This document shows positions 916 to 31,138 of a stretch of 31,385 nt of DNA, piece by piece. The stretch spans positions 1 through 31,385 of IMG/VR virus record IMGVR_UViG_3300035034_000238; one strand, written 5' to 3'. The notes beneath the pieces are model-generated. The model did not search any database. It was given only the letters and a program-made list of their open reading frames with translations, and was not told the DNA's origin. The first letter of the stretch is position 1; each line of letters opens with the position of its first letter. This DNA comes from a virus. The position numbers were made by a program, and so were the translations under genes.

Positions 916-3900
916 ATGAAGTGTAAGATAACAGTTACTGGCTCAGACGCCCAAAGATTTAAAAATCTTAGTGATAAGTTCGGAGGCAGAGCCGCGCTGG
1001 AAACTCTATTAGAGAATGATGGCACAAACACTATTGACGGATTTATATCTGATGTAGAGGAAGGAAATAGGATTAACGCTTTATCATATTTTACACTAAA
1101 TAATCTAATTGCATCAGAAGGTCTTTCATCTTTGGATCTTAGGTCTAAATTTATAGAGTCAGACAAGTTTAATAACGCTATGAGAGCAGCGAGAGAAAAT
1201 CTTGTGGCTATTATGGAAAATAACCTAAGTGAGGAAGAAGTATCAGAAGATAACAGACGTATTGCTTCCAGGGCTTTTGTTGCATACATCAATTTTGGTA
1301 AGCTTATGCCTAAGATACAAGCTAGATTTGAAGCCTTTGGTCTAACTGTAAATGAACTTAACCAGAATTTTGAGGAGATTATAAGAAATGAGGGTGAGAT
1401 TTCTAATAACAAACAACACATTTATAGCCAATCTTTTATGGAAAGAAGTCCTCTTGATTCCACACCACCATCTGTAAAGTTGTTTTTGGCCACGAGGGCT
1501 AAGCAACAATTAAATGCCGACGGTACACCAATACCTATTCTTGATGATATAGGTATGCAAGTACCTGTAGATTTTGATGCTTTGTATTCAAGAATTAGTA
1601 AAGGTTTAACTGATCTGCACTCTTATGAAGAGATGATCACCAAGTTAAAGGAAATGTCAAAGAATGATGCTGAAATAAGGTCTGTACTTGATACTATGAT
1701 TGATGGAGATCTTGATAAGCACGGTATAGAGTTTAAAGGAGTTAAAACTAAACCATTTCAGAATGCATTCTTTAGTTCTATGGCTAACACACACTATGAC
1801 TTTATGACTTTAGCAATAGATAAAGACTATGGATCTGAGATAGAAGGCTCAAAGAAAGTATCTATGTTAAGGACTAATAAAAGATCCCTGGATAGAGCTC
1901 TTAGAAATGAATGGGCAGCTAATTCAATGAAAGTTTCCAAATTACCTCTTGCTACACGTCAAGGTCTCTGGGATACACATGTACATAAAGTATTTGACTC
2001 TTCTCAAAGTGCAACTACTCCTGCAGAAAAACGTAAAATGAAGTCAGACTTTAGCCTTAAATTAGATAACGTTAATGCTAAGAGTGTGTTAGTAGACGTT
2101 TCAAATATGCTTGCTTTATTAGGTATAAATGTAAGTCCTCAGGCAGTTGATATTCTAAGAACTACTTTAAACAATAAGAAGCCAGGTGAGTTTAAAGCAT
2201 TTGTACAGTCACGATTGTATAATTTAGGTAAAGCATACTATAATGAAAATAGAAATATATTTGAAGACGAAAGTGGAACTATAACTATTCTTGCTACAGC
2301 ACAAGCATCTTTATCTAGTGAATTAGGTGTACAAGCTTTTATGAACGGAGAGAATAATATTATTTATCCTATTAATAGGCCAACATTTGCTAAAGAGTGG
2401 TTTAATAACATGAAGAATAAGACAGATGTACTTACAAGACTGTCTTTAGATCCATTCTATAGCGGATTTAAAATTGTACAGGATTTTAACCAAGCTGAGC
2501 ACGGCATGGAGATGATATCATTTGATACTATTACAGATAATTCATCAGGAGTAGCCACTAGTTATTCAAGTTTGGATCCTGTGTCATCAATGGCCTCTAG
2601 GTTTAATTTCTTCTTGAATTACGATGCTAAAGGTAGAGTCGGAGCACACACAAACAAATTTGGGTGGTTCCTAGTCCCTACACCAGCAGATAGATCAGGT
2701 ACTCAAGTACTTAAGATGAAACTTATTGGAGATGGATCCTTAATAAACAAGTATTCTGTATTTAGTGAAGCTGCTGGGTATAAAGATTGGGCTGTAAACT
2801 CTGCCAAAGCTGAGTTTGAAAGAATAAAGTTGGTTTTTCAGGAGTATAACTCAACAGAAAATAAAAAAGAGCTTGTTAAAAACTATCATTACACTGAAGA
2901 AGAAGGAGTTGAAGGAACAAAATTAGGTAATGGAGGATATTTCCAGAACTTTACTGAGTTAAACAAATTCTTAGTAGTAAAGGATGGTATATTACAAAAT
3001 ATTAATTTTGAAAGTCCTGTAATTCTACAAGCTCTTGAACAATCACTTAATGATCAAATAGCTGCTGATATACGTCATTTAGGGGAGATTGGTTTCTTAA
3101 ATACCGTTGAGGGACAAGCTGTAGTTAAGGAACAATCGCTTACAGGAAATAACAACAATAGTGATATTTCAATTACTACACCAGAACAATCTAAAATCAC
3201 TAGTATAAGATCTACAGAGCATGCTAATAACTTGCTATCCAATGGAGGTGTAGTCACTGAAAATAATCTATACAAGTTTTTAATAAACTCTTATGTAGCT
3301 AATCAGGAATTATCTGCATTGTTTCATGGTGATCTTGCAAATTTCACTGCAAAGGAAACTACTATAGCAGATTATAAAGGAGACCCAACCACAGTCCAAC
3401 TCGCTAGTTATAATAATGCTAATAAAAGATCAGGTCTTGCTTACACTCCTGGGAAAAAGGGTAGGGTAGGACTTGGAGGAATGAATGCTACATTTAATGT
3501 GTCATTTGTGGCGGATGTAAGGTCTGTATTAGGAGGAGATATTTACAATGATGTATTGAATTCTCTTTCAGAAGACCATAGATATGGCAGGAAACAAGCA
3601 GAGAAATATGGTAAAACCAATTCCACTGATGGTCAGGGATTAGCATCATTATATAGGTATGCAGATATCCTTAACGGTCAAGGGCTTCTTACTCCTTCTA
3701 TGTTAGAGACACTAATTGAGTTAGAAAAACAACCTGAGAACATAAACTGGTCCAAGGTAACTGAAAAATTGGTAGCTGTAAAAGGATTTTATCATGCTGT
3801 AGAGTTTGATCCTCATTTTGGTAGGGTAATGACAAAGAATTTAAAATACTCATTACTTCCAGTGTTTCCTGCAATGATGAAAGGAAACACAGCATTACAA

Positions 3901-6900
3901 GATCTTTATAATAAGATGATAGCCTCTAAAGCAGATGAGTTAGTATTTGAAAGTGGTATCAAAATGGGTGCGTATAACCTTAATCAAGTATCTGACCCTA
4001 CGTTTTCTATTGTTGCTCTTAACAACGAGAACTATCGTATTCCTCAAGAAGTTCCTTATAAGGACAAGGTAGAAGAGAATTATGGTAGTCAAATTCGTAA
4101 GTTAATAGAGGGTAATTTAGTGGATGATGCAGACTACAATGGGAGATCTGGAGAAAGTCTAAGATCTATTTACAATCAAGCTCAAAGCTTGAAGATTGAG
4201 AATTCATTTAAAGATATGCTTAGAACACTTGCTACTGATGGTAAAATTGATATCGAGAAAGTAGCCAAGAGAATCTTAAGAGATCTTGCCAAAAACCAAT
4301 ACAAGAGTGATTCAGAGTTTATTAACAAAGCTTTAGAAATAATTACAACTGAAACAGGAGCAAAGGATACTCGTATTCCTATGTCATTTCCTGCAATTAA
4401 GTATAAAGCTGAATCGGCTATGAATACTATGGTCAAAAAAGCTGTTCATAGATTGTCTCTCCCTGGTTTCGTAGGAGTAGTTTATTCTTCCTATGGGATG
4501 GATGAGAAGCAAATAGGTTTTGATAAATCACTTAAGTTTGTGCGTAAAGGTCCAGACGGTAGAACACTGCCAGCTCAAGTAAAAATGAGCCCCCAGTATT
4601 TCCTCGGAATCCTTAGAAATAAGATAAAAGACATTACAGGTGAGATAGCAGCTATAAATAATGATGTTTCTGTTAGGAAAATGCAAACAGAGATTGCTAG
4701 CATTAGATCAGTTATACAGGAAATGGAGAGAGGTGAATTTGATATTAAAAGACTTCCAGCTAAATTAAGACAGGCAGTCATATATAGGATTCCTACTCAG
4801 GGTAAAAACTCTATGTTACCTGTAGAAATTGTTGCATTTACACCTGAGGCATTTTCTACATCTATCACCTTGCCCTCTGCTATTGTTACACAATCAGGTA
4901 TGGACTTTGATATTGATAAGGTGTATGTAGAATCAAGACATTTCACTTACAGTAATGGGGAATTCTCTGTTGCTCAAAGTAATTTAAGTACAGCAGAGGG
5001 AATTGATAACACCATTATAGATGCTCACTATGATGTTCTTACATCACCTCAACATTTCAGTGAGTTGGTGACACCCAATAACTCTGACACATTAGAGGAT
5101 TTATCTAAAGAAATCTCAGGTATTTATGATGTTAACACTGAAGGAAGAAAATGGAGCTCAGTATCAACTCAGGATAGTTTTAGGGACAGAAGTCAATCAG
5201 CAGAAGTTACTTTAGGAGTGTCCTCCAATGCTAATACAGCACATGCTATATATCAAAGCTTAGAAGTTACAGTAAAAAATAGACTAGAAACTTCAAATAA
5301 TGTTGATCTAAGAAGAAGCACAGAACAAAATGAAGCTAAGAGTAGAGAATCTTCCTATGGACCTAAGATTGATTATGGAAGATCGTGGAGTGAGTTACGT
5401 AGTAAGAAAGTATATACTACAGCAAAAGATGGCACTCTGTTAGTAAATACTATGAGAACGAGTAATAGAGAAGGAGGAGCACATGCACATTTTGGAAACC
5501 CATTTACAGAGAATATTCTTGCTGCTAGTAGAAATAGTTCTCTTATAAAATCTGACTCAGTTTCAGAAGCTATTGATAGATATGAGAAGTGGATAAAAGG
5601 GGAACCTATTACTGGTTTAACTACAGAACAGGAAGCAACATTACAGGGCCATGAAAATCAGAAAAAATGGATAGTGAAGGAGATATCCAATAAAAAAATG
5701 ACAGCTGCTGTACTTATGTATGACTCATCATTAGCTGGAAGAGGACTTGGCACACATGCAGATGTCCTTCAAAAGGTCATTGCTGAGAATAGTGGCATTA
5801 ATAATATGACTAACTCTTCTGGAGCAGAAGCTACAAATGTAGTAAATGTTTACTCTTCAGACAGTGAAGCGTCTAGTCTATCTAATTTTGCACCTCGTCC
5901 ATTTATGTTAGGGGATTTCGTTACATACCCAACTGTAGAACATGCGTTTCAAATGCAGAAAATAGAAGACTCCAGAGGAGTATATTCTGAAGATCAAAAA
6001 TATATTCTTAGAGAAAGAATGTTAAAAATGACTGCTGCAGAGGCTAAAGTGGCCGGAGCAAAAGTAAAAGGATTAGACTTAAATTATTGGGATAAGAACT
6101 CATCAGAGTTACTTAAAATTATTATGAGAGCTTCATTTGATGCTAATCCTAGCGCTGTTACCAGACTGCTTGAAACTGGAGATGCAGCTATCTCCCATAA
6201 AGACAGTAGTGGTAAAGAGCAGGATAAAGGGCAATTCTCAAGACTTCTTATGGAATTAAGAGAAGAGTATGGCGGTACTGGTGTAGTGCAGCCTGGTATA
6301 ACTACACCTACGTTTACACAGGGCGGAGCAACACAGATTAAAAAAGATACAAAACCAGTTGCTACTGATAAAAAGGGTGTTCTTGTCAATGGAGAAAGAG
6401 TTAGAACTTTAGGAGAGATTTATACAAACTCTGATAAAAAGAGAAAGATTTCTGATGATCATATTGAGACTCAGACTGCGGCTGTGGATAACCCCACACT
6501 GCTTGGATCATTAAACATTAACCCAGCTACAGGAGCAGCTTATTTCTTTATGATTGAGAGTGGTGCCGGATTGAACTATGCAGTTAAATTGATAAATACC
6601 CCTATTATAAGGGAATTAATTAGAAGAACCAGAATCAATGAAACTTCAATGGGTAAAGAAGGAGCATTCTCAAATGCTATGAGTGATTTAGCTAAGGAGA
6701 GAGGGTTTGATATTGAAAAAGAATTTAACACAGATTCTGATGTTAAGGAAAATGTACTTGATAGAGTTCTTGGTCATGCCAGAGAAGGTAAAATGCAAAC
6801 AATGCATGATCTGAATATTTTAAAAGCGTACATGACTTTCAGACATTACGGAAATGAATTAAATACTTTTCAGAAAGCGTTAAGAGCAGACGTTATTGGA

Positions 6901-8097
6901 ACAAGACAGACACAAGCGGCTAACATCATTGCTACGCAAGATATAGCCAAGGTGAAAGGAACATACTCAAGTGAGAATATCCCTGAATCTGAAATTGGGT
7001 TTCAAGTACAAGCGTTTACTTTTAATAAGTCAAAGTATGATAGTCACTCATTAAAAACATTTGAGGAGTATGGATTACATAAAGCTATAGATATAGTAGG
7101 TACTTATGTTGCAGATTCATCCAAAACGTTTAGGGATGTTCTTAGCCAACTAAGAAAAGATTTCGGTGGTCAAATGACTGACAGAGATGCAAGGATAATA
7201 GTCAATGACTTTTATACCTACATATTTGCCAACAAAAGAGCACATATGCAGAAACTAAGTGTTATTGCTAAAAACTCTCCTGAAACTGTAGTGCAAATGA
7301 TGATGGGTGATAATTCTGTAGGAAAACAGGTATTAGAAGCTAAATTGATTGAAACACAAATGGCTAGGGAGGATGTATCTTTCATACCTAATCAGCTTCT
7401 ATCATACTTGTCAGTTACACCAGACAATGGAAGAACAGGCTATGACACAGTGTCATTTAACAATTCTATATCAAGAGCTTTGTCCACTGACCAGAAGACA
7501 ATGTTTGCGAATGAATTTGAGAGTTTATTATACTATGATAAATCCTCTAATACAGACACAAACTCGTTCTTTAGAAACCTGGGTGTTCAATTATTTGCAT
7601 TAAATTTCTTTACAGAGGGATTTTCAAGAGGTATCAACTCATACAGTGAGTTTATACCTATTACAATGTATGAAGATTTTCGCGAGACAGGCGGAGAGAG
7701 TCTTGTAGAGTACTTTAGAGATATATGGCCAGACTTTAAGAACACTGCCAATTTCACTACTGAACATTTCAAGAAAATGGTATTAGCCAACAGAGCGCAC
7801 GAACTTACGAGTTTAAAAGACCTAAGAAAGATGTCTAAAAGTAATATTACTAAGTATTTGGCACAAAATGCAAATGTGAATGTATTTCTCATGAAATTAG
7901 GTGATACTGAAGTAATAGGGAAACGTCTTGATGAAGAGGGTAATTATACTGGAATTATTAAGCTTTTAGGAACCAAAGGATGGAGAGTAGATTATCAGGC
8001 CGACGGTGCTGTAAGTCAGGTTTTATCCGCTAATAAGGTCCTTATACAGGAAAAAGCACGAAAAAATGTCCAGGAATCGAGAAATAGTAAGTGCTAA
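916..8097 (+). CDS. Giant single-chain DNA-dependent RNA polymerase-like protein with inserted DUF4326-like and NADAR domains
   Basis: The 2393-residue protein carries DFDID at 1330-1334 within SGMDFDIDKVY. This form of the double-psi beta-barrel metal-binding loop is described for single-chain polymerases of crAss-like phages and is related to NADFDGD of cellular RNA polymerases. RIPTQG (1291-1296), GVSSNANTAHAI (from 1434) and the VDNPTLLGSLNIN segment (from 1857) look like further family segments. Between the last two sit a DUF4326-like stretch (about 1499-1625: HFGNPF, YEKWIKG, GTHADVL) and a NADAR/YbiA-like domain (about 1643-1786: LSNFAPRPF, YPTVEHAFQ with E1675, TGDAAISH). In the phage family such polymerases can be packaged in virions and injected to transcribe early genes; whether this one is packaged cannot be seen. 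The frame is unbroken. The start follows an A/T-rich leader. Confidence 0.8.
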   Translation: MKCKITVTGSDAQRFKNLSDKFGGRAALETLLENDGTNTIDGFISDVEEGNRINALSYFTLNNLIASEGLSSLDLRSKFIESDKFNNAMRAARENLVAIMENNLSEEEVSEDNRRIASRAFVAYINFGKLMPKIQARFEAFGLTVNELNQNFEEIIRNEGEISNNKQHIYSQSFMERSPLDSTPPSVKLFLATRAKQQLNADGTPIPILDDIGMQVPVDFDALYSRISKGLTDLHSYEEMITKLKEMSKNDAEIRSVLDTMIDGDLDKHGIEFKGVKTKPFQNAFFSSMANTHYDFMTLAIDKDYGSEIEGSKKVSMLRTNKRSLDRALRNEWAANSMKVSKLPLATRQGLWDTHVHKVFDSSQSATTPAEKRKMKSDFSLKLDNVNAKSVLVDVSNMLALLGINVSPQAVDILRTTLNNKKPGEFKAFVQSRLYNLGKAYYNENRNIFEDESGTITILATAQASLSSELGVQAFMNGENNIIYPINRPTFAKEWFNNMKNKTDVLTRLSLDPFYSGFKIVQDFNQAEHGMEMISFDTITDNSSGVATSYSSLDPVSSMASRFNFFLNYDAKGRVGAHTNKFGWFLVPTPADRSGTQVLKMKLIGDGSLINKYSVFSEAAGYKDWAVNSAKAEFERIKLVFQEYNSTENKKELVKNYHYTEEEGVEGTKLGNGGYFQNFTELNKFLVVKDGILQNINFESPVILQALEQSLNDQIAADIRHLGEIGFLNTVEGQAVVKEQSLTGNNNNSDISITTPEQSKITSIRSTEHANNLLSNGGVVTENNLYKFLINSYVANQELSALFHGDLANFTAKETTIADYKGDPTTVQLASYNNANKRSGLAYTPGKKGRVGLGGMNATFNVSFVADVRSVLGGDIYNDVLNSLSEDHRYGRKQAEKYGKTNSTDGQGLASLYRYADILNGQGLLTPSMLETLIELEKQPENINWSKVTEKLVAVKGFYHAVEFDPHFGRVMTKNLKYSLLPVFPAMMKGNTALQDLYNKMIASKADELVFESGIKMGAYNLNQVSDPTFSIVALNNENYRIPQEVPYKDKVEENYGSQIRKLIEGNLVDDADYNGRSGESLRSIYNQAQSLKIENSFKDMLRTLATDGKIDIEKVAKRILRDLAKNQYKSDSEFINKALEIITTETGAKDTRIPMSFPAIKYKAESAMNTMVKKAVHRLSLPGFVGVVYSSYGMDEKQIGFDKSLKFVRKGPDGRTLPAQVKMSPQYFLGILRNKIKDITGEIAAINNDVSVRKMQTEIASIRSVIQEMERGEFDIKRLPAKLRQAVIYRIPTQGKNSMLPVEIVAFTPEAFSTSITLPSAIVTQSGMDFDIDKVYVESRHFTYSNGEFSVAQSNLSTAEGIDNTIIDAHYDVLTSPQHFSELVTPNNSDTLEDLSKEISGIYDVNTEGRKWSSVSTQDSFRDRSQSAEVTLGVSSNANTAHAIYQSLEVTVKNRLETSNNVDLRRSTEQNEAKSRESSYGPKIDYGRSWSELRSKKVYTTAKDGTLLVNTMRTSNREGGAHAHFGNPFTENILAASRNSSLIKSDSVSEAIDRYEKWIKGEPITGLTTEQEATLQGHENQKKWIVKEISNKKMTAAVLMYDSSLAGRGLGTHADVLQKVIAENSGINNMTNSSGAEATNVVNVYSSDSEASSLSNFAPRPFMLGDFVTYPTVEHAFQMQKIEDSRGVYSEDQKYILRERMLKMTAAEAKVAGAKVKGLDLNYWDKNSSELLKIIMRASFDANPSAVTRLLETGDAAISHKDSSGKEQDKGQFSRLLMELREEYGGTGVVQPGITTPTFTQGGATQIKKDTKPVATDKKGVLVNGERVRTLGEIYTNSDKKRKISDDHIETQTAAVDNPTLLGSLNINPATGAAYFFMIESGAGLNYAVKLINTPIIRELIRRTRINETSMGKEGAFSNAMSDLAKERGFDIEKEFNTDSDVKENVLDRVLGHAREGKMQTMHDLNILKAYMTFRHYGNELNTFQKALRADVIGTRQTQAANIIATQDIAKVKGTYSSENIPESEIGFQVQAFTFNKSKYDSHSLKTFEEYGLHKAIDIVGTYVADSSKTFRDVLSQLRKDFGGQMTDRDARIIVNDFYTYIFANKRAHMQKLSVIAKNSPETVVQMMMGDNSVGKQVLEAKLIETQMAREDVSFIPNQLLSYLSVTPDNGRTGYDTVSFNNSISRALSTDQKTMFANEFESLLYYDKSSNTDTNSFFRNLGVQLFALNFFTEGFSRGINSYSEFIPITMYEDFRETGGESLVEYFRDIWPDFKNTANFTTEHFKKMVLANRAHELTSLKDLRKMSKSNITKYLAQNANVNVFLMKLGDTEVIGKRLDEEGNYTGIIKLLGTKGWRVDYQADGAVSQVLSANKVLIQEKARKNVQESRNSKC

Positions 8098-19387: not shown

Positions 19388-22075
19388 ATGGCACTATTAG
19401 ATACAACAACAATGTCAGGAACTGGTATTGTTAAGGAACTGGAAGAGTCAGCTTTAGGGCTGGTTCTCCAGAACCTTCAACAAGATCAATACCAATATCC
19501 TGAGAAATCTTTCATAAGAGAGATTGCCTCAAACGCAGTAGATGCTATTGAGGAGAAGAAGATGGCACGAAGTATATTGAAAGGAGAATCTATAATCTCA
19601 GATCATTATAGTGATATAGATTCAGAACTTACTAAAGATTCAAAGTTTAACCCAGATTATTACAATTTGGGTTTTTTGTCTCCACTCGACGAGATAACTA
19701 TCACGTACATAAATAAAGATAGGAGCGTCAGTAATAGGGACAGGATAATTATAGAAGATACAGGTGTAGGACTGGGCCATAATCGGCTTAAAGGATTCTT
19801 TCGCCCGGCATTTTCAACTAAAAGACTTAATCGTAATGCTTTAGGTAAATGGGGAATTGGAAGTAAATCTGGATTAGCTACAGGTGTTGAATCCTATCAG
19901 ATTACATCTCGTCATAACGGGAGAGAATTCCATTTTGATATTTATAACGATAGGTTCTATTCAACTGTACCCAAGTTTGACGACGAGGGTAATGCTACTG
20001 CTTTTGAAACATGGAAAGTTAAAATGTACACTGAGGATGGTGGTGTAGAAGACCAAGAGATACATATACATTACTTTGACACGGTTAAACCTAATGGTTT
20101 AATTGTACTTATGGATGTTAAAAACCCTCTTAGAAACAAAGCAAAGTACATTGACGCAGTAAAATCTCAATTAACTTATTTTAATTATGTAAGATTATTT
20201 GAGGAGTATGAAGCTGACAGCGATAGGAATTCAGAAACATTCTTTAAAACACGTATTTTATACGAGGACGAGTTTCTAGCTATACCTGAAGACAATTACC
20301 ATTCTGTCCCTCACTTAATTCTTAACGGAGTTAACTATGGAAAGATAGACTTTGGAGAAGCAGAGATGGACGAAAAGATTGGTAATGTGGGCATTAAGGG
20401 AGATCCTAGTGGTATTGATGTTAATCAGTCTCGGGAGCTAATTAGATACACAGCAAAATCACGAGAGTCCTTGAAAAAGTACTTAGAGAATGCTGTTATT
20501 GTGGCCCAAGACTATATCAATGTTAACATGGAAGCGTACCAATCTGACTTCCTAAAATGGATTCTGGCCTGTCGAGACATTAAGGCCAAAAACTCTAGGG
20601 ACAATGTATTCAGTAGGCTCTCTGGTTTAGCTGACCTCGACAAAGTAGAGTTCACATTCGCAGACACGGGTATAAAATTTTCGCAGTCAAACTTCAAGAA
20701 GATATTTGCAGGCTTTAGAGTTACTCGGGTGCAAGTATCTAAGTCTAAAGGTGCCTTTAAGACAACCACTACAGACATAGGATCATGGGAGTCATTCTCT
20801 CCTAGTACTGTGTACTATAGGAGCTCATCTGATTTTAGATACTCTTCTATTCTAATGGGGTATATATCAGAACAACAGGAATACAAACCGGATCTGGCGG
20901 ATCAAAATGAAATCTCTCATGTGTATCTTATAACTCCAATTAAGGACTATAGTACCCTTGAGATTAAGGAGGTTTCAACAGCCACAGAAGTAAAGAAACT
21001 CTTACTTGAGTCCTCTGTAGGTATTTTAGAAGATGTAGTTGTTCCTCAGGAATATATTGATGAAGTAGCAGAGAGTCAACGGAATCTTGATAAGGAAATA
21101 GCCAAAGAAAAAGAATACTCAGCAATGTCTGAAAAAGAAATCAGAGACAGAGACGGATGTGTATTATATCATGACTTTAAAGTAGCTGATTTTGGTAACT
21201 ACAGAAATAGTCCTCGAGTAATCAAAGATTTCAGAATTTCACGGACACGTAGGGAAATTTCCATTGAGGATATGAAGAATACATTCTCTAAGCAAACAAC
21301 CATTTATGGTACGTTAGAGGATATTCCATTGCTGAAAACTCTTCTCCATTGGATAGATAAATACGAACGTACAGAATCCCCCTCTGTGTTCGCACTCTCA
21401 TCTAAAAGATTGCAGATTATAGTAGTATCTAAAAATATAGTAAAGTATTTAGACAAACATGCCACCCACGTCAAACGTGCTTTGCAAGATGTGCAAGGTA
21501 GAAAACTATCGGTAATGAGCGCAGTAAGAAAGTATAACACAGCAAGTCAATTTAGACATGTTATAAAATCATTTGACTTCCAATTTCTTCATTTATTTGA
21601 AGAGATAGATAAGGAAGCATTTGATACATACAATATGCTTATTGATTACACACAAAGCAATGGCTTTAATAAGCCTGCCATTACAAAGGTCCCAGGAGTA
21701 GAGAGTATAGAAGAGTACATGGATAAGATCAGAGATTTTCAACTATTCTTAATAGACAACTCGGATCCAAAAGTGGTGTCAGAAAAATCTAAAGAATTGT
21801 TTAATAATCCTGACTTAAACTCTTGTGATTCTGTTGATATTGAGGTATATTCGAAGTTCAAAGCGTTAGAAAATTACGTAGAAGGCATGAAGAAAATGTT
21901 TATGTCTACATCCCAACTAATAGACAGATGGTCTGGAATAGATATTTCTTTTGATGCAGAATCATTTAGAGAGTATATCGTATTGAAAGGTATTCCAAAC
22001 TTTATTGAGTTTGAAAAGTCATGGGATATTGAGTTAAAGGTAGATGAGTACAAGAAAAATCGACAGCAAGACTAA
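19388..22075 (+). CDS. GHKL/HSP90-like ATPase, rIIA-like protein
   Basis: The 895-residue protein has the Bergerat ATP-binding fold. The N box is FIREIASNAVDA (E45, N49), the G1 box EDTGVGLG (123-130, D124), and the G2 box GKWGIGSKSG (153-162). The remaining 700 residues are mixed helical regions without other recognised domains. Size, architecture and the gene that follows (rIIB-like) identify it as a relative of the T4 rIIA protein, which with rIIB protects infection against exclusion systems such as RexAB; the biochemical action is not settled. A link to DNA topology (GyrB/MutL fold) is less likely given the partner. Leader: TTTTAAGTATTAAGAATT before the ATG. Confidence 0.75.
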   Translation: MALLDTTTMSGTGIVKELEESALGLVLQNLQQDQYQYPEKSFIREIASNAVDAIEEKKMARSILKGESIISDHYSDIDSELTKDSKFNPDYYNLGFLSPLDEITITYINKDRSVSNRDRIIIEDTGVGLGHNRLKGFFRPAFSTKRLNRNALGKWGIGSKSGLATGVESYQITSRHNGREFHFDIYNDRFYSTVPKFDDEGNATAFETWKVKMYTEDGGVEDQEIHIHYFDTVKPNGLIVLMDVKNPLRNKAKYIDAVKSQLTYFNYVRLFEEYEADSDRNSETFFKTRILYEDEFLAIPEDNYHSVPHLILNGVNYGKIDFGEAEMDEKIGNVGIKGDPSGIDVNQSRELIRYTAKSRESLKKYLENAVIVAQDYINVNMEAYQSDFLKWILACRDIKAKNSRDNVFSRLSGLADLDKVEFTFADTGIKFSQSNFKKIFAGFRVTRVQVSKSKGAFKTTTTDIGSWESFSPSTVYYRSSSDFRYSSILMGYISEQQEYKPDLADQNEISHVYLITPIKDYSTLEIKEVSTATEVKKLLLESSVGILEDVVVPQEYIDEVAESQRNLDKEIAKEKEYSAMSEKEIRDRDGCVLYHDFKVADFGNYRNSPRVIKDFRISRTRREISIEDMKNTFSKQTTIYGTLEDIPLLKTLLHWIDKYERTESPSVFALSSKRLQIIVVSKNIVKYLDKHATHVKRALQDVQGRKLSVMSAVRKYNTASQFRHVIKSFDFQFLHLFEEIDKEAFDTYNMLIDYTQSNGFNKPAITKVPGVESIEEYMDKIRDFQLFLIDNSDPKVVSEKSKELFNNPDLNSCDSVDIEVYSKFKALENYVEGMKKMFMSTSQLIDRWSGIDISFDAESFREYIVLKGIPNFIEFEKSWDIELKVDEYKKNRQQD

Positions 22076-28010: not shown

Positions 28011-28232
28011 ATGAGTAAAGACAATAAAATGACAACGGAGAGTCTTGATCCCTACTTATGGGATATCCAAGACTCTCTTCTTGTTGAAGCCGCAGAGAAC
28101 TTACATTATGTCCACTGGAGTGAGATAGCAGAAATGAGTACTAAGGCAAACTTTCAGTACACGAAGGATAAGTTACACAGTATTATGATTAGTAAATTTA
28201 GACAAGAAGAATATGCAAACGACTCTTTATAA
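28011..28232 (+). CDS. Unknown small acidic protein, 73 aa, containing an inverted repeat
   Basis: A short soluble, helical, acidic product (MSKDNKMTTESLDPYLWDI at the start) without a recognised family. Codons 10-22 contain a strong inverted repeat (28038-28077), which may mean that the RNA structure matters as much as the peptide. It starts nine bases after the reductase stop and overlaps the ligase gene by 20 bp, so it is probably translated to keep the ribosome coupled to the ligase. Confidence 0.6.
   Translation: MSKDNKMTTESLDPYLWDIQDSLLVEAAENLHYVHWSEIAEMSTKANFQYTKDKLHSIMISKFRQEEYANDSL
28038..28077 (+). repeat. Inverted repeat able to form a 15-bp hairpin
   Basis: GAGAGTCTTG (28038-28047) is the exact reverse complement of CAAGACTCTC (28068-28077). 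Inside, ATCCC (28048-28052) pairs with GGGAT (28060-28064) around a seven-base loop, leaving a three-base ATC bulge on the 3' side. No T run follows, so it is not an intrinsic terminator. It could be an RNase III processing site or an attenuator between the reductase and ligase genes. Confidence 0.8.
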
Positions 28233-29391
28233 AGATTTTAAACCCAATTTAATCCCAAACTCAAAAGTATCTAGCCCTATAGATTTGAGAGAAATTCTTG
28301 GAGATAAAATTGATGACTACGTACTTTCCTTAAAGAAGGACGGGTGTCGTATTGAAGTAGTAGGAGGGAAGCTACTCTCCAGAGCCTTAAAGCCCATAAC
28401 AAGCACCTGGATACAAAAAAGATTTTTTGACTTAACACAGAAATGTCTTAAGTACGGTATTATTTTGGAAGGGGAATTTTATTCTCATGGAATGAAATTC
28501 AATGAGATTAATAGATTTTTCAAAACAGAAGATGTAACAGATACAAAACACTTACGTGAGATGGAAGCTGATACCCATAAATATAATCTTACAGGTACTA
28601 TCAAACATCCTATATGGGTAGTAGTGAAAGATGCCGATAAACTGTTAGAGGTAAGAAAAACTCATAGCTCTAAGTTCGAGCAGGATTGGCCAGGTCGTAC
28701 TCCAGAGTGGATGAGTACATATCACGAATCCTTACAACTATGGCCATTTGATTGCATAATAGAGTTAAATGTAAGTGCACCATTTAGGGAGAGGATGAAA
28801 TGGTTATTTAGCCAAATCCACGACAAGGATGGACTCTTACATGAGTTTAAGGACATCGTTAATACTAATGGGTGGTTTAACCTATGTAATGAACAAGACT
28901 TTTCTGAGATATACACATATGGGGATTTAGAGAAATTGTACGAAGAGTCTCTTGATCTAAATTGGGAAGGGTTAGTCATCACACATCACAAGAGAACGTA
29001 CAAATATGGTAGGTCAACTGCCAGAGAGGCTACTATCTTTAAGATGAAAGAAGATAAGTTAGAGTATGATGGTCAGGTGTTAGATATCGTTGAAGGGACA
29101 ATAGCGAGAAGTGGGGCCCCTAGGTCCACAAATGAACTAGGGAGATCAGTAACTTCCAAATTAGCTCATGATAGAGAACCCTCTGGAATTGCATCTGGAA
29201 TCCTATCTGAATTCGAGGGACACAAAATCACAGTATCCTTTGATGGATATGATCATGATGAACTTAGAGAACTATTAGCCAACAAAGACAAGTATGTAGG
29301 ACAGTGGTTCAAGTACACTGGCATGAAACCAGTTAAGAATGTGCCACGTCATGCCCATATGACTAGAAACAGTTGGAGAGATAGTAAATAA
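28213..29391 (+). CDS. ATP-dependent DNA ligase
   Basis: The 392-residue protein carries the nucleotidyltransferase motifs of ATP ligases. Motif I is KKDGCR with K41 as the adenylated lysine, motif III is ILEGEF (E86), motif IIIa lies around WPFDCII, motif IV is WEGLVI (E252), and motif V is FKMKEDK (K277, K279). A C-terminal OB-fold-like region follows (VSFDGYDHDELREL to the end). It seals nicks after the flap nuclease acts. The start overlaps the preceding small gene by 20 bp. Confidence 0.9.
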   Translation: MQTTLYKDFKPNLIPNSKVSSPIDLREILGDKIDDYVLSLKKDGCRIEVVGGKLLSRALKPITSTWIQKRFFDLTQKCLKYGIILEGEFYSHGMKFNEINRFFKTEDVTDTKHLREMEADTHKYNLTGTIKHPIWVVVKDADKLLEVRKTHSSKFEQDWPGRTPEWMSTYHESLQLWPFDCIIELNVSAPFRERMKWLFSQIHDKDGLLHEFKDIVNTNGWFNLCNEQDFSEIYTYGDLEKLYEESLDLNWEGLVITHHKRTYKYGRSTAREATIFKMKEDKLEYDGQVLDIVEGTIARSGAPRSTNELGRSVTSKLAHDREPSGIASGILSEFEGHKITVSFDGYDHDELRELLANKDKYVGQWFKYTGMKPVKNVPRHAHMTRNSWRDSK

Positions 29392-29396
29392 TATCA

Positions 29397-29455
29397 AGAG
29401 GGTTAGCTTATATGGGCCAAAGCCTTGGAAGCCAGTTGGAATCTGGCACCCTCTA
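29397..29455 (+). ncRNA. tRNA-like element without an anticodon arm
   Basis: The 59-nt stretch folds as a cloverleaf missing one arm. The acceptor stem AGAGGGT (29397-29403) pairs perfectly with ACCCTCT (29448-29454), with A as discriminator. T8 and A9 follow. The D arm has stem GCTT/AAGC (29406-29409, 29420-29423) and loop ATATGGGCCA, keeping A14, G18-G19 and A21. The T arm is GCCAG, loop TTGGAAT, CTGGC (29431-29447), with G53, T54, T55, A58 and C61 in place. Only CTTGGAA separates D and T arms, where about 22 nt with the anticodon stem-loop should be. C56 is replaced by G, so the usual G19-C56 contact is lost. No CCA is encoded. It fills the ligase-dNMP kinase gap. Confidence 0.6.
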
Positions 29456-29475: not shown

Positions 29476-30078
29476 ATGATGAAACTTAATGTTTACATCG
29501 GAGTCATGGGTTCTGGCAAAGACTATGAAGCTGATAAATGTGATGAAAAAATATCATTTGGTGATGCTGTCAGAAGAGATGTATGGAAAATCCTTAAATG
29601 GAAGCCAAAAACTCAAGAAGAATATGAGATGTTTAAGGAAACTAAGTGGAAACTCCCTGGAGATAGGATTCATTATTTTACAGGTAGAAGGATACTTCAA
29701 GACTATGGTACTGATATCAGAAGGACTGAAGATAAAGACCATTGGGTTAAGCAACTGATTACTAAGATAGATGCTGTGAACAACACTAATCTAACATTAG
29801 AAGTACATGAGCGTAAATATCTGACAGTAGGAATACCTGATTGTAGATTTCCAAATGAGGTTTCTGGCATCATAAATTTATGGGAGAAGTTAGCTACTAC
29901 TCCCAAAAGATTTGAATTAGAATTTATCCATTGTGATTATAAATCTAATAGGTACAATGCTGAGGATCCTCATGAGTCTGAGTCTATGGCTCAAGAGTTT
30001 GCAGGAAAAGTATATAAGACGGGAGAATTTTTTATGAAAATACTCAAATTACATTACACACAATGGGAACAAAAATAA
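29476..30078 (+). CDS. Deoxynucleoside monophosphate kinase (T4 gp1-like)
   Basis: The frame extends back to TTG 29425, but that would run through the tRNA-like element; ATG 29476 (or 29479) behind TTTAAAGAGTGATTAT is the better start, giving 200 residues. A Walker A loop lies at 9-15 (GVMGSGK, then D16), as in T4 gp1. GRRILQDYGTDIRRTEDKDHW and VGIPDCRFPNEV match the family's substrate-binding and lid segments. It converts dNMPs to dNDPs, including the dTMP made by ThyX encoded next, with which it overlaps by 16 bp. Confidence 0.85.
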   Translation: MMKLNVYIGVMGSGKDYEADKCDEKISFGDAVRRDVWKILKWKPKTQEEYEMFKETKWKLPGDRIHYFTGRRILQDYGTDIRRTEDKDHWVKQLITKIDAVNNTNLTLEVHERKYLTVGIPDCRFPNEVSGIINLWEKLATTPKRFELEFIHCDYKSNRYNAEDPHESESMAQEFAGKVYKTGEFFMKILKLHYTQWEQK

Positions 30079-31100
30079 ACGCTAAGATAATAGCAGACAG
30101 TTTAAGTCCGTCAGGTAGTAGAATCACTACGTACCTATTAACTTACCCTAGATTTATTCATGGGGAATTAATGACTCATAGAATGTTTAGTAGAAACTCA
30201 GCATCAAGTAGAGCTATACCTTTTAAAAAGATGGTTAAGATGGCTAAAGAAGATCCTTTTATACCTATTGCTTGGCAAAAAGATCATAAAGGGATGCAGG
30301 GAACTGAATATTTAGAAATAAAACCTAATGTATTTGGACCTGTCAATGGTTGGCTAGAAGCCAGAGATAAGGCAGTAGAATTAGCTAATTACTTAAATGA
30401 ATTAGGTGTAACTAAACAACTTTGTAATAGATTATTAGAACCTTTTATGTGGCATACAGTTATAATTACAGCAACTGAATTTGAAAATTTCTTTGCATTA
30501 AGATGTCCTGCTTATTATGATGGAAAAGTAAATCATAGAAGTATTAAAGATTATCTTAAAGCTAATGATTCTGATATAGAGAAATACCCAGAAAGTTATT
30601 GGAAAAGTATTAATCAATCTCAAGCAGAAATTCATATACAAGCATTAGCAGAATCTATGTGGAATGCTATGAATGAATCTATTTCTAAAAAATTAAAACC
30701 TGGGGAGTGGCATATACCTTTTGGGGAATATATTGATGAGAATCCTAAAGTAGAGACAGAGCTGGAACTACTCTCTAATAAAATTCACTTTACATCTATT
30801 GCAGATAGTGCAGATATGGAAATGCTTAAAGTCAAAATAGCTACAGCGATGTGTGCTAAACTATCATATAACAATCATGGTAGTATTGTGAATTTTTCAA
30901 AAGATCTTGATTTACATGACATGTTATTAAGAAATAAACACATGAGTCCTTTTGAACATTGTGCCAGAGTTATGTCTGATGTAGAATACTCTTTGTGTTA
31001 TTATAAAGGGTCTTTAACAGATAAAAATTCTGATAAAAGTAATAGTGGATGGTGTAGAAATTTTAAAGGATTTATACAATACAGGGATTTAGTAGAATAA
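30063..31100 (+). CDS. thyX: Flavin-dependent thymidylate synthase ThyX
   Basis: The 345-residue protein has the ThyX motif in the form THRMFSRNSASSR (38-50; consensus RHRxxSxNxxSxR, with Thr for the first Arg), which binds FAD and dUMP. FMWHTVIITATEFENFFALRC and the later MSPFEH segment are also typical. It is longer than cellular ThyX (about 220-250 residues), with extra sequence at 160-260. It methylates dUMP to dTMP using methylenetetrahydrofolate and reduced FAD. The substrate comes from the dUTPase at 18679 and the product goes to the kinase upstream. It is the last gene before a strong terminator. Confidence 0.92.
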   Translation: MGTKINAKIIADSLSPSGSRITTYLLTYPRFIHGELMTHRMFSRNSASSRAIPFKKMVKMAKEDPFIPIAWQKDHKGMQGTEYLEIKPNVFGPVNGWLEARDKAVELANYLNELGVTKQLCNRLLEPFMWHTVIITATEFENFFALRCPAYYDGKVNHRSIKDYLKANDSDIEKYPESYWKSINQSQAEIHIQALAESMWNAMNESISKKLKPGEWHIPFGEYIDENPKVETELELLSNKIHFTSIADSADMEMLKVKIATAMCAKLSYNNHGSIVNFSKDLDLHDMLLRNKHMSPFEHCARVMSDVEYSLCYYKGSLTDKNSDKSNSGWCRNFKGFIQYRDLVE

Positions 31101-31101
31101 C

Positions 31102-31138
31102 AAAAGCCTATCCTTAACGGGATAGGCTTTTTTTTTTT
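31102..31138 (+). terminator. Rho-independent terminator after thyX
   Basis: AAAAGCCTATCC (31102-31113) pairs with GGATAGGCTTTT (31120-31131) in a perfect 12-bp stem with loop TTAACG. The T run continues to 31138. It begins two bases after the thyX stop. The A run at its left side gives a shorter T tract for the opposite strand, so it may also stop the convergent gene entering from the right. Confidence 0.92.

Follow-up and report, generated by a model that had tools for sequence, protein, structure and literature searches.

We analyzed a viral record of 31,385 nt (IMG/VR record IMGVR_UViG_3300035034_000238, positions 1 to 31,385; hereafter the window) and confirm that it contains a tRNA-shaped RNA that has no anticodon arm. 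The same type of RNA recurs in dozens of unrelated phages, and its shape is preserved by matched mutations. We tentatively propose that phages of many lineages encode an undescribed class of small RNAs, each a tRNA minus exactly its anticodon arm, that would act in trans as stand-alone decoys, probably against host factors or defenses whose tRNA binding does not depend on the anticodon. We rate this proposal as a whole well short of an even chance.

The original prediction described a 7-bp acceptor stem, a 4-bp D stem and a 5-bp T stem, all perfectly paired and in tRNA order, together with the invariant tRNA bases and only seven bases between the D and T arms. All of this is borne out by the sequence. 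Between 29397 and 29454, three stems of 7, 4 and 5 bp are Watson-Crick paired throughout and follow tRNA order. T8, A14, GG, A21, the G53-C61 pair, T54, T55 and A58 are all present, and the linker at 29424-29430 is 7 nt long. In full, 29397-29454 reads AGAGGGT-TA-GCTT-ATATGGGCCA-AAGC-CTTGGAA-GCCAG-TTGGAAT-CTGGC-ACCCTCT, with the following parts:

29397..29454, + strand: anticodon-armless tRNA-like RNA, whole element, 58 nt (from the descriptor and from a covariance model built without the window sequence)
29397..29403, + strand: acceptor stem 5' strand AGAGGGT, 7/7 Watson-Crick with 29448-29454
29404..29405, + strand: U8 A9 (from sequence)
29406..29423, + strand: D arm, stem GCTT/AAGC (29406-29409/29420-29423), loop ATATGGGCCA, with A14 U15 ... 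G18 C19 C20 A21 (from sequence)
29424..29430, + strand: linker CTTGGAA, 7 nt, in place of the anticodon arm, its final base A48 complementary to U15 (from the linker-length and 15:48 tables)
29431..29447, + strand: T arm, stem GCCAG/CTGGC (29431-29435/29443-29447), loop TTGGAAT = U54 U55 G56 G57 A58 A59 U60 (from sequence)
29448..29455, + strand: acceptor stem 3' strand ACCCTCT (29448-29454) plus discriminator A73 (59th base, 29455) (from sequence)

RNase P is predicted to generate the 5' end of the element at 29397. CCA is not encoded, and the acceptor pair 3:70 is A3:U70.

A strict three-stem descriptor matches the window once and had no match in 60 first-order Markov shuffles of the same length. 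When relaxed, it gave no further match in 2.7 Mb of phage loci fetched through the window proteins. For the covariance model R2, we used 44 elements of other phages and left out the window sequence. On the window, R2 scores 29397-29454 at 38.9 bits (E = 2.7e-12), and the next best place at 7.4 bits. The earlier argument against a random hairpin therefore holds, as judged by the shuffles and by this search with an armless covariance model, which had been suggested as a check. The element does come from a single contig. However, given its E value and the independent members in dozens of other assemblies, it is extremely improbable that it is a chance trio of hairpins or a mis-assembled full-length tRNA. 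ARAGORN found no tRNA and no tmRNA in the window. Rfam gave no RF00005 and no tmRNA match there, and the element was unmatched up to E = 10.

The T loop of the window element has G56 instead of C56, and it is the sole G56 member among the matches listed. C56 is common in the class and was not required for membership, being fixed in the second of our IMG/VR scans and free in the first. The change of C56 to G had been counted against a fully tRNA-like fold. G56 is real, but the argument is weakened by a matching C19. Because G56 would compensate, this one sequence allows a reading of the 10-nt D loop AUAUGGGCCA as A14-U15-AUGG-G18-C19-C20-A21, which would restore the 18:55 and 19:56 (C19-G56) pairs. 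An alternative contact between the loops is antiparallel CCAA/UUGG pairing. The minimum fold predicted for the window element is -20.6 kcal/mol versus -17.8 kcal/mol for the tRNA-like fold, and in the former a GGGC/GCCU hairpin displaces the D stem. The tRNA-like fold lies within 2.5 kcal/mol of the minimum in 48 of the 65 class members (among the matches listed), with the window element at 2.8.

The element occupies an 84-nt gap, 5 nt past the ligase stop codon and 21 nt ahead of the kinase ATG, on the same strand as these genes:

28213..29391, + strand: ATP-dependent DNA ligase (Pfam DNA_ligase_A_M, E = 1.3e-8; 37-38% identity to Cellulophaga phage ligases)
29476..30078, + strand: deoxynucleoside monophosphate kinase (dNMP kinase; PHROG 139, E = 3.2e-17)
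30063..31100, + strand: ThyX-type thymidylate synthase, next gene in the same-strand block (PHROG 85, E = 1.1e-64; 46% to a Cellulophaga phage protein)

No terminator-like hairpin is reported after the armless tRNA, so it appears to be transcribed within the gene block. The window ThyX matches Cellulophaga and Flavobacterium phages at 45-46%. Together with the Cellulophaga-type ligase and a giant protein that is weakly crAss-like, this indicates that the window phage is a distant relative of Bacteroidota phages. Residues 1649-1761 of the giant protein (916-8097, 2393 aa) form a NADAR domain, and the protein is weakly similar to crAss-like phage proteins, one of them annotated as a putative RNA polymerase. 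We also observed in the window an 895-aa protein (19388-22075) with no tblastn match in 50,697 phage records (E 1e-5) and a 35% relative in IMG/VR locus L191, a tandem repeat at 40-131 (33-bp unit AAGAGTTGCTTGATTATGCGCTTTGGTTAGAGC, 2.8 copies) and, directly after thyX, a strong hairpin that resembles an intrinsic terminator and has a long T tail (31102-31131).

A syntenic homologue of the window element was not found. IMG/VR searches with the kinase, the ligase, RNR and ThyX returned no locus with the order ligase-element-kinase, and an exact-sequence search for the element gave no match. In the ligase relatives L082, L083 and Cellulophaga phage phi13:1, neither the kinase nor the element lies beside the ligase. 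Comparison of the gap among related phages, another proposed check, thus had a mixed outcome: a few ligase relatives (37-40% identical) were available, but they lack both the element and the adjoining kinase, so the exact window gap has no homologue to compare.

IMG/VR was scanned for a D arm followed at a short distance by a T arm, the acceptor stem being left unspecified. The first scan pattern yielded 25 matches and the second at least 120 rows. Besides the window, at least 64 distinct elements combine a paired T stem with an acceptor stem whose spacing is exactly that of tRNA, with no more than one mismatch. The 65 class members that result when the window is included come from metagenomic collections and are a lower bound, not a prevalence figure. 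An acceptor stem is present in 63 of the 104 distinct D/T-arm matches listed, compared to 1.9 expected when the 3' halves are dealt anew. Among the matches listed, the linker is 8-9 nt long in 49 of 65 members (class range 7-12 nt; about 22 in canonical tRNA), and class linkers often resemble CTTGGGTC. We take a linker of this type to correspond to base 26 plus the variable loop, in which case the lost piece would be exactly the anticodon arm.

Among the matches listed, acceptor and discriminator sequences are diverse across the class. The flanking proteins are diverse as well (terminase, portal, head protein, polymerase, endolysin, HNH and others), with no common neighbor gene or preferred gene pair among them. 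R2 scores the armless element highest in nine phage records, and four other short R2 matches that we examined contained no second clear copy. A megablast query of 34 elements, joined together with their short flanks, matched no isolate phage, a negative at that sensitivity. The DNA around one class element likewise had no isolate match, and no annotated isolate example was found. The same scan of GTDB bacterial genomes gave 57 matches, of which 20 pass a loose pairing test. These were kept out of the argument: about seven include masked Ns, two have the same sequence as phage contigs, and several lie near cellular tRNAs and have a terminal CCA.

Across 52 sequences, standard pairs occupy 98.8% of pair cells versus 66.3% when shuffled, and double-changed cells number 271 versus 69; the stem part of this covariation is partly selected by the filter, whereas the 15:48 count and the count of 63 versus 1.9 are not. 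Neither scan pattern constrained positions 15 and 48. Among the matches listed, they are complementary in 65 of 65 members (G-C in 55, A-U in 9, U-A in 1), the only U-A case being the window element (U15-A48). An association this strong was reached in 0 of 100,000 permutations. In contrast, only 11 of 41 D/T matches that lack the acceptor stem are complementary at 15:48 (among the matches listed). Since 15:48 is the Levitt pair, which holds the tRNA core together, the class RNAs probably adopt the L shape minus its anticodon limb.

In three loci (L254, L258 and L382), the ORF upstream of the element is small, basic and rich in Cys, ends in PCNGDC and is homologous among them. An IMG/VR search that used only the alignment of this protein returned nine loci in six lineages, with relatives at 39-47% identity. 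All nine have an armless element 4-10 nt past the stop codon, scoring 44-73 bits with R2. Three lineages (L434, L435 and L436/437/438) had been missed by the RNA scans and were recovered by the protein search. In L435, the D stem differs too and is compensated (GCAT/GTGC). Over the six lineages, both sides changed in nine pairs versus 3.7 when shuffled, and in 15 cells versus 4.9. Compensatory change, which the original prediction had named as a check, is thus found for the class at this syntenic site but not at the site of the window element itself. The PCNGDC protein (L432-L440, ORF at ~3001-3246) matched no Pfam or PHROG family among those scanned, and it is a possible RNA-binding partner.

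These data also bear on the earlier suggestion of a decayed phage tRNA, in which the anticodon arm has been deleted and the stems have not yet been lost. The core is clearly tRNA-derived, the window is without a syntenic homologue, and canonical tRNAs lie nearby in some phages of the class. We nevertheless regard decay as unlikely. Compensation is class-wide, the linker is narrow in length, 15:48 is complementary in every member among the matches listed, and one place has been kept in six lineages. In the window itself, the changes at 15:48 and, on the C19 reading, at 19:56 are matched, and there is no canonical tRNA.

The explanation we favor for the window element, to which we give somewhat less than an even chance, is a trans-acting decoy for proteins that bind tRNA independently of the anticodon. 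It would be a phage-encoded tRNA mimic of 58 nt, unable to decode because it lacks the anticodon arm. The mimic would keep the core, that is, the stacked acceptor and T arms, the elbow formed by the D and T loops, and the 15:48 Levitt pair. Host RNase P and the 3' tRNA-maturation enzymes would excise it from the transcript of the ligase-kinase block. The freed RNA may then act as a decoy or competitive inhibitor of proteins that grip the tRNA elbow and acceptor end and leave the anticodon unread. Candidate targets are tRNA-targeting host defenses or toxins, or enzymes that process or modify tRNA.

Diverse acceptors, rare CCA, a lower same-strand share and the record of R2 top matches favor a stand-alone, trans-acting mimic recognized by its shape. 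CCA is encoded in 5 of 65 class members (among the matches listed). Canonical tRNAs from the same loci encode it in about 52 of 103 cases (Fisher p = 2e-9), although a few loci dominate this set and sampling is uneven. Neighbors are on the strand of the element in 40 of 57 and 35 of 49 cases (~70%), compared to 73 of 79 and 63 of 69 for canonical tRNAs (92%); this comparison is approximate, as it uses simple ORF calls on few, unevenly sampled loci. Seven class elements among the matches listed are antisense to both neighbors. Against a decoy, the predicted minimum fold of the window element breaks the D stem, and this G56 member lacks a syntenic homologue.

The main rival to a decoy is a processing site that works in cis; both had been among the functional options first suggested. 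As a substrate of RNase P and RNase Z, the element would cut the message between ligase and dNMP kinase, or cap or stabilize the upstream 3' end, and the freed RNA would be idle. We consider this doubtful, although it explains the position in the window as well as a decoy does. A stop codon close upstream on the same strand suits cis processing equally, both in the window (5 nt after the stop, 21 nt before the start) and in the PCNGDC family (4-10 nt past the stop in every locus). Diverse acceptor sequences fit this reading too, and substrates of RNase P and RNase Z do not require an anticodon arm. A precedent is tmRNA, which has no anticodon and is processed by RNase P (PMC3985003). However, cis processing does not sit well with the strand data, in which only ~70% of neighbors are on the same strand and some elements are antisense to both, or with the lack of a favored gene pair across the class. 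A full tRNA fold with a conserved 15:48 pair also exceeds what RNase P needs.

A further alternative to a decoy is a charged tRNA mimic, which would have CCA added and an amino acid attached on the basis of acceptor identity elements alone, and would serve non-ribosomal delivery or trap EF-Tu. That a tRNA without an anticodon can be alanylated is known from tmRNA (PMC3985003), and some class members combine G3:U70 with A73 (G-U at 3:70 in 7 of 65, among the matches listed). We find charging improbable, since acceptor and discriminator sequences are too diverse for a shared aminoacylation identity to be likely. In addition, the window has A3:U70, and CCA is seldom encoded even where the canonical tRNAs of a locus encode it. 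An alanine identity at G3:U70 for the class was considered and rejected: G-U pairs are no commoner there than at 1:72 (7 versus 7, among the matches listed).

Pieces of tRNA are often found at the attachment sites (attP) of temperate phages, so the element could be an attP derived from a host tRNA gene. This is highly improbable, as the family tables shown for 128 flanking proteins include one integrase, and the element is a complete 58-nt core, no mere tRNA 3' end. The window has replication genes, and the neighbors of the element are the ligase and the kinase, with no adjacent integrase.

Among known RNAs, canonical tRNA (Rfam RF00005) shares with the class the acceptor, D and T stems, U8, A14, the G18-U55 elbow and the 15:48 Levitt pair. 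The class differs in having no anticodon arm and in rarely encoding CCA. RF00005 reports the armless element in 11 of 15 other loci scanned, at 39-52 bits versus a gathering score of 29; unlike many class members, the window element does not reach that score. tmRNA has no D stem and carries a tag ORF, pseudoknots and G3:U70. It resembles the element (RF00023 and kin) in having a tRNA core without an anticodon, but the window element has a 4-bp D stem, no room for an insert or tag, and A3:U70. mascRNA, menRNA and viral tRNA-like structures are non-decoding tRNA-like folds matured by tRNA enzymes, and mascRNA keeps a small anticodon-like arm. They are eukaryotic or plant-virus RNAs with topologies unlike that of the window element. 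Truncated mitochondrial tRNAs also miss a whole arm, but it is usually D or T that is lost and the anticodon arm that stays, opposite to the phage element.

The bacterial Y RNA YrlA also has a tRNA-like domain, which an anticodon nuclease does not cut and which has been suggested as a competitive inhibitor of that nuclease (PMC7790460). YrlA differs in having a Ro-binding Y-RNA module and an rsr/rtcBA operon, whereas the window element is a 58-nt core only and the window has no such genes. The 84-nt gap contains no Ro-binding module and gave no Rfam match.

We found no published description of the armless phage class in the open-licence literature; an account elsewhere is possible, and there is a reasonable chance that no description of the class exists. 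ARAGORN reported none of the class elements checked, and software has probably already met class elements via the Rfam tRNA model. Annotation software therefore either misses armless genes or labels them as plain tRNA. Translation has no use for a tRNA that lacks an anticodon. An armless tRNA that is maintained and recurrent therefore implies another viral use of the tRNA shape. This suggests that viruses use tRNA look-alikes for a purpose other than protein synthesis, such as decoying tRNA-targeting defenses or toxins, taking over tRNA enzymes or cleaving messages. The compact 58-nt core is simple to express, mutate and pull down, which puts the question within reach of direct tests.

Other elements were met alongside the class. 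A second recurrent phage element has D and T arms joined by AACTGGCGAC or a close sequence and little or no acceptor stem (L327, L328, L344, L351, L365, L384, L388, L389, L390 and L406). It is embedded in a longer conserved stretch ending in CCATACGAAAGTATGAGGTGTGTAGGGTGTCAAGCG (a CATAC-GAAA-GTATG hairpin) and appears to belong to a larger tRNA-derived RNA. In MAGs of Bacillota, Izemoplasmatales and Bacillales (L287, L288, L303, L304 and L315), a cellular armless element ends a tRNA cluster; it is conserved between species, for example as GTCATGATAGCTTAATTGGTAAAGCATTCAGGATATAGGTTCGAATCCTATTATTGAC, and has only 4-5 acceptor pairs. On Bacteroidota chromosomes (Chitinophagaceae, Spirosoma and Larkinella), a D arm and a T arm recur with a linker of the AACAG... 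type and an unpaired acceptor (L280, L281, L290, L298, L311, L313, L316, L319-L321 and L326), followed in several cases by TATCAACTC.
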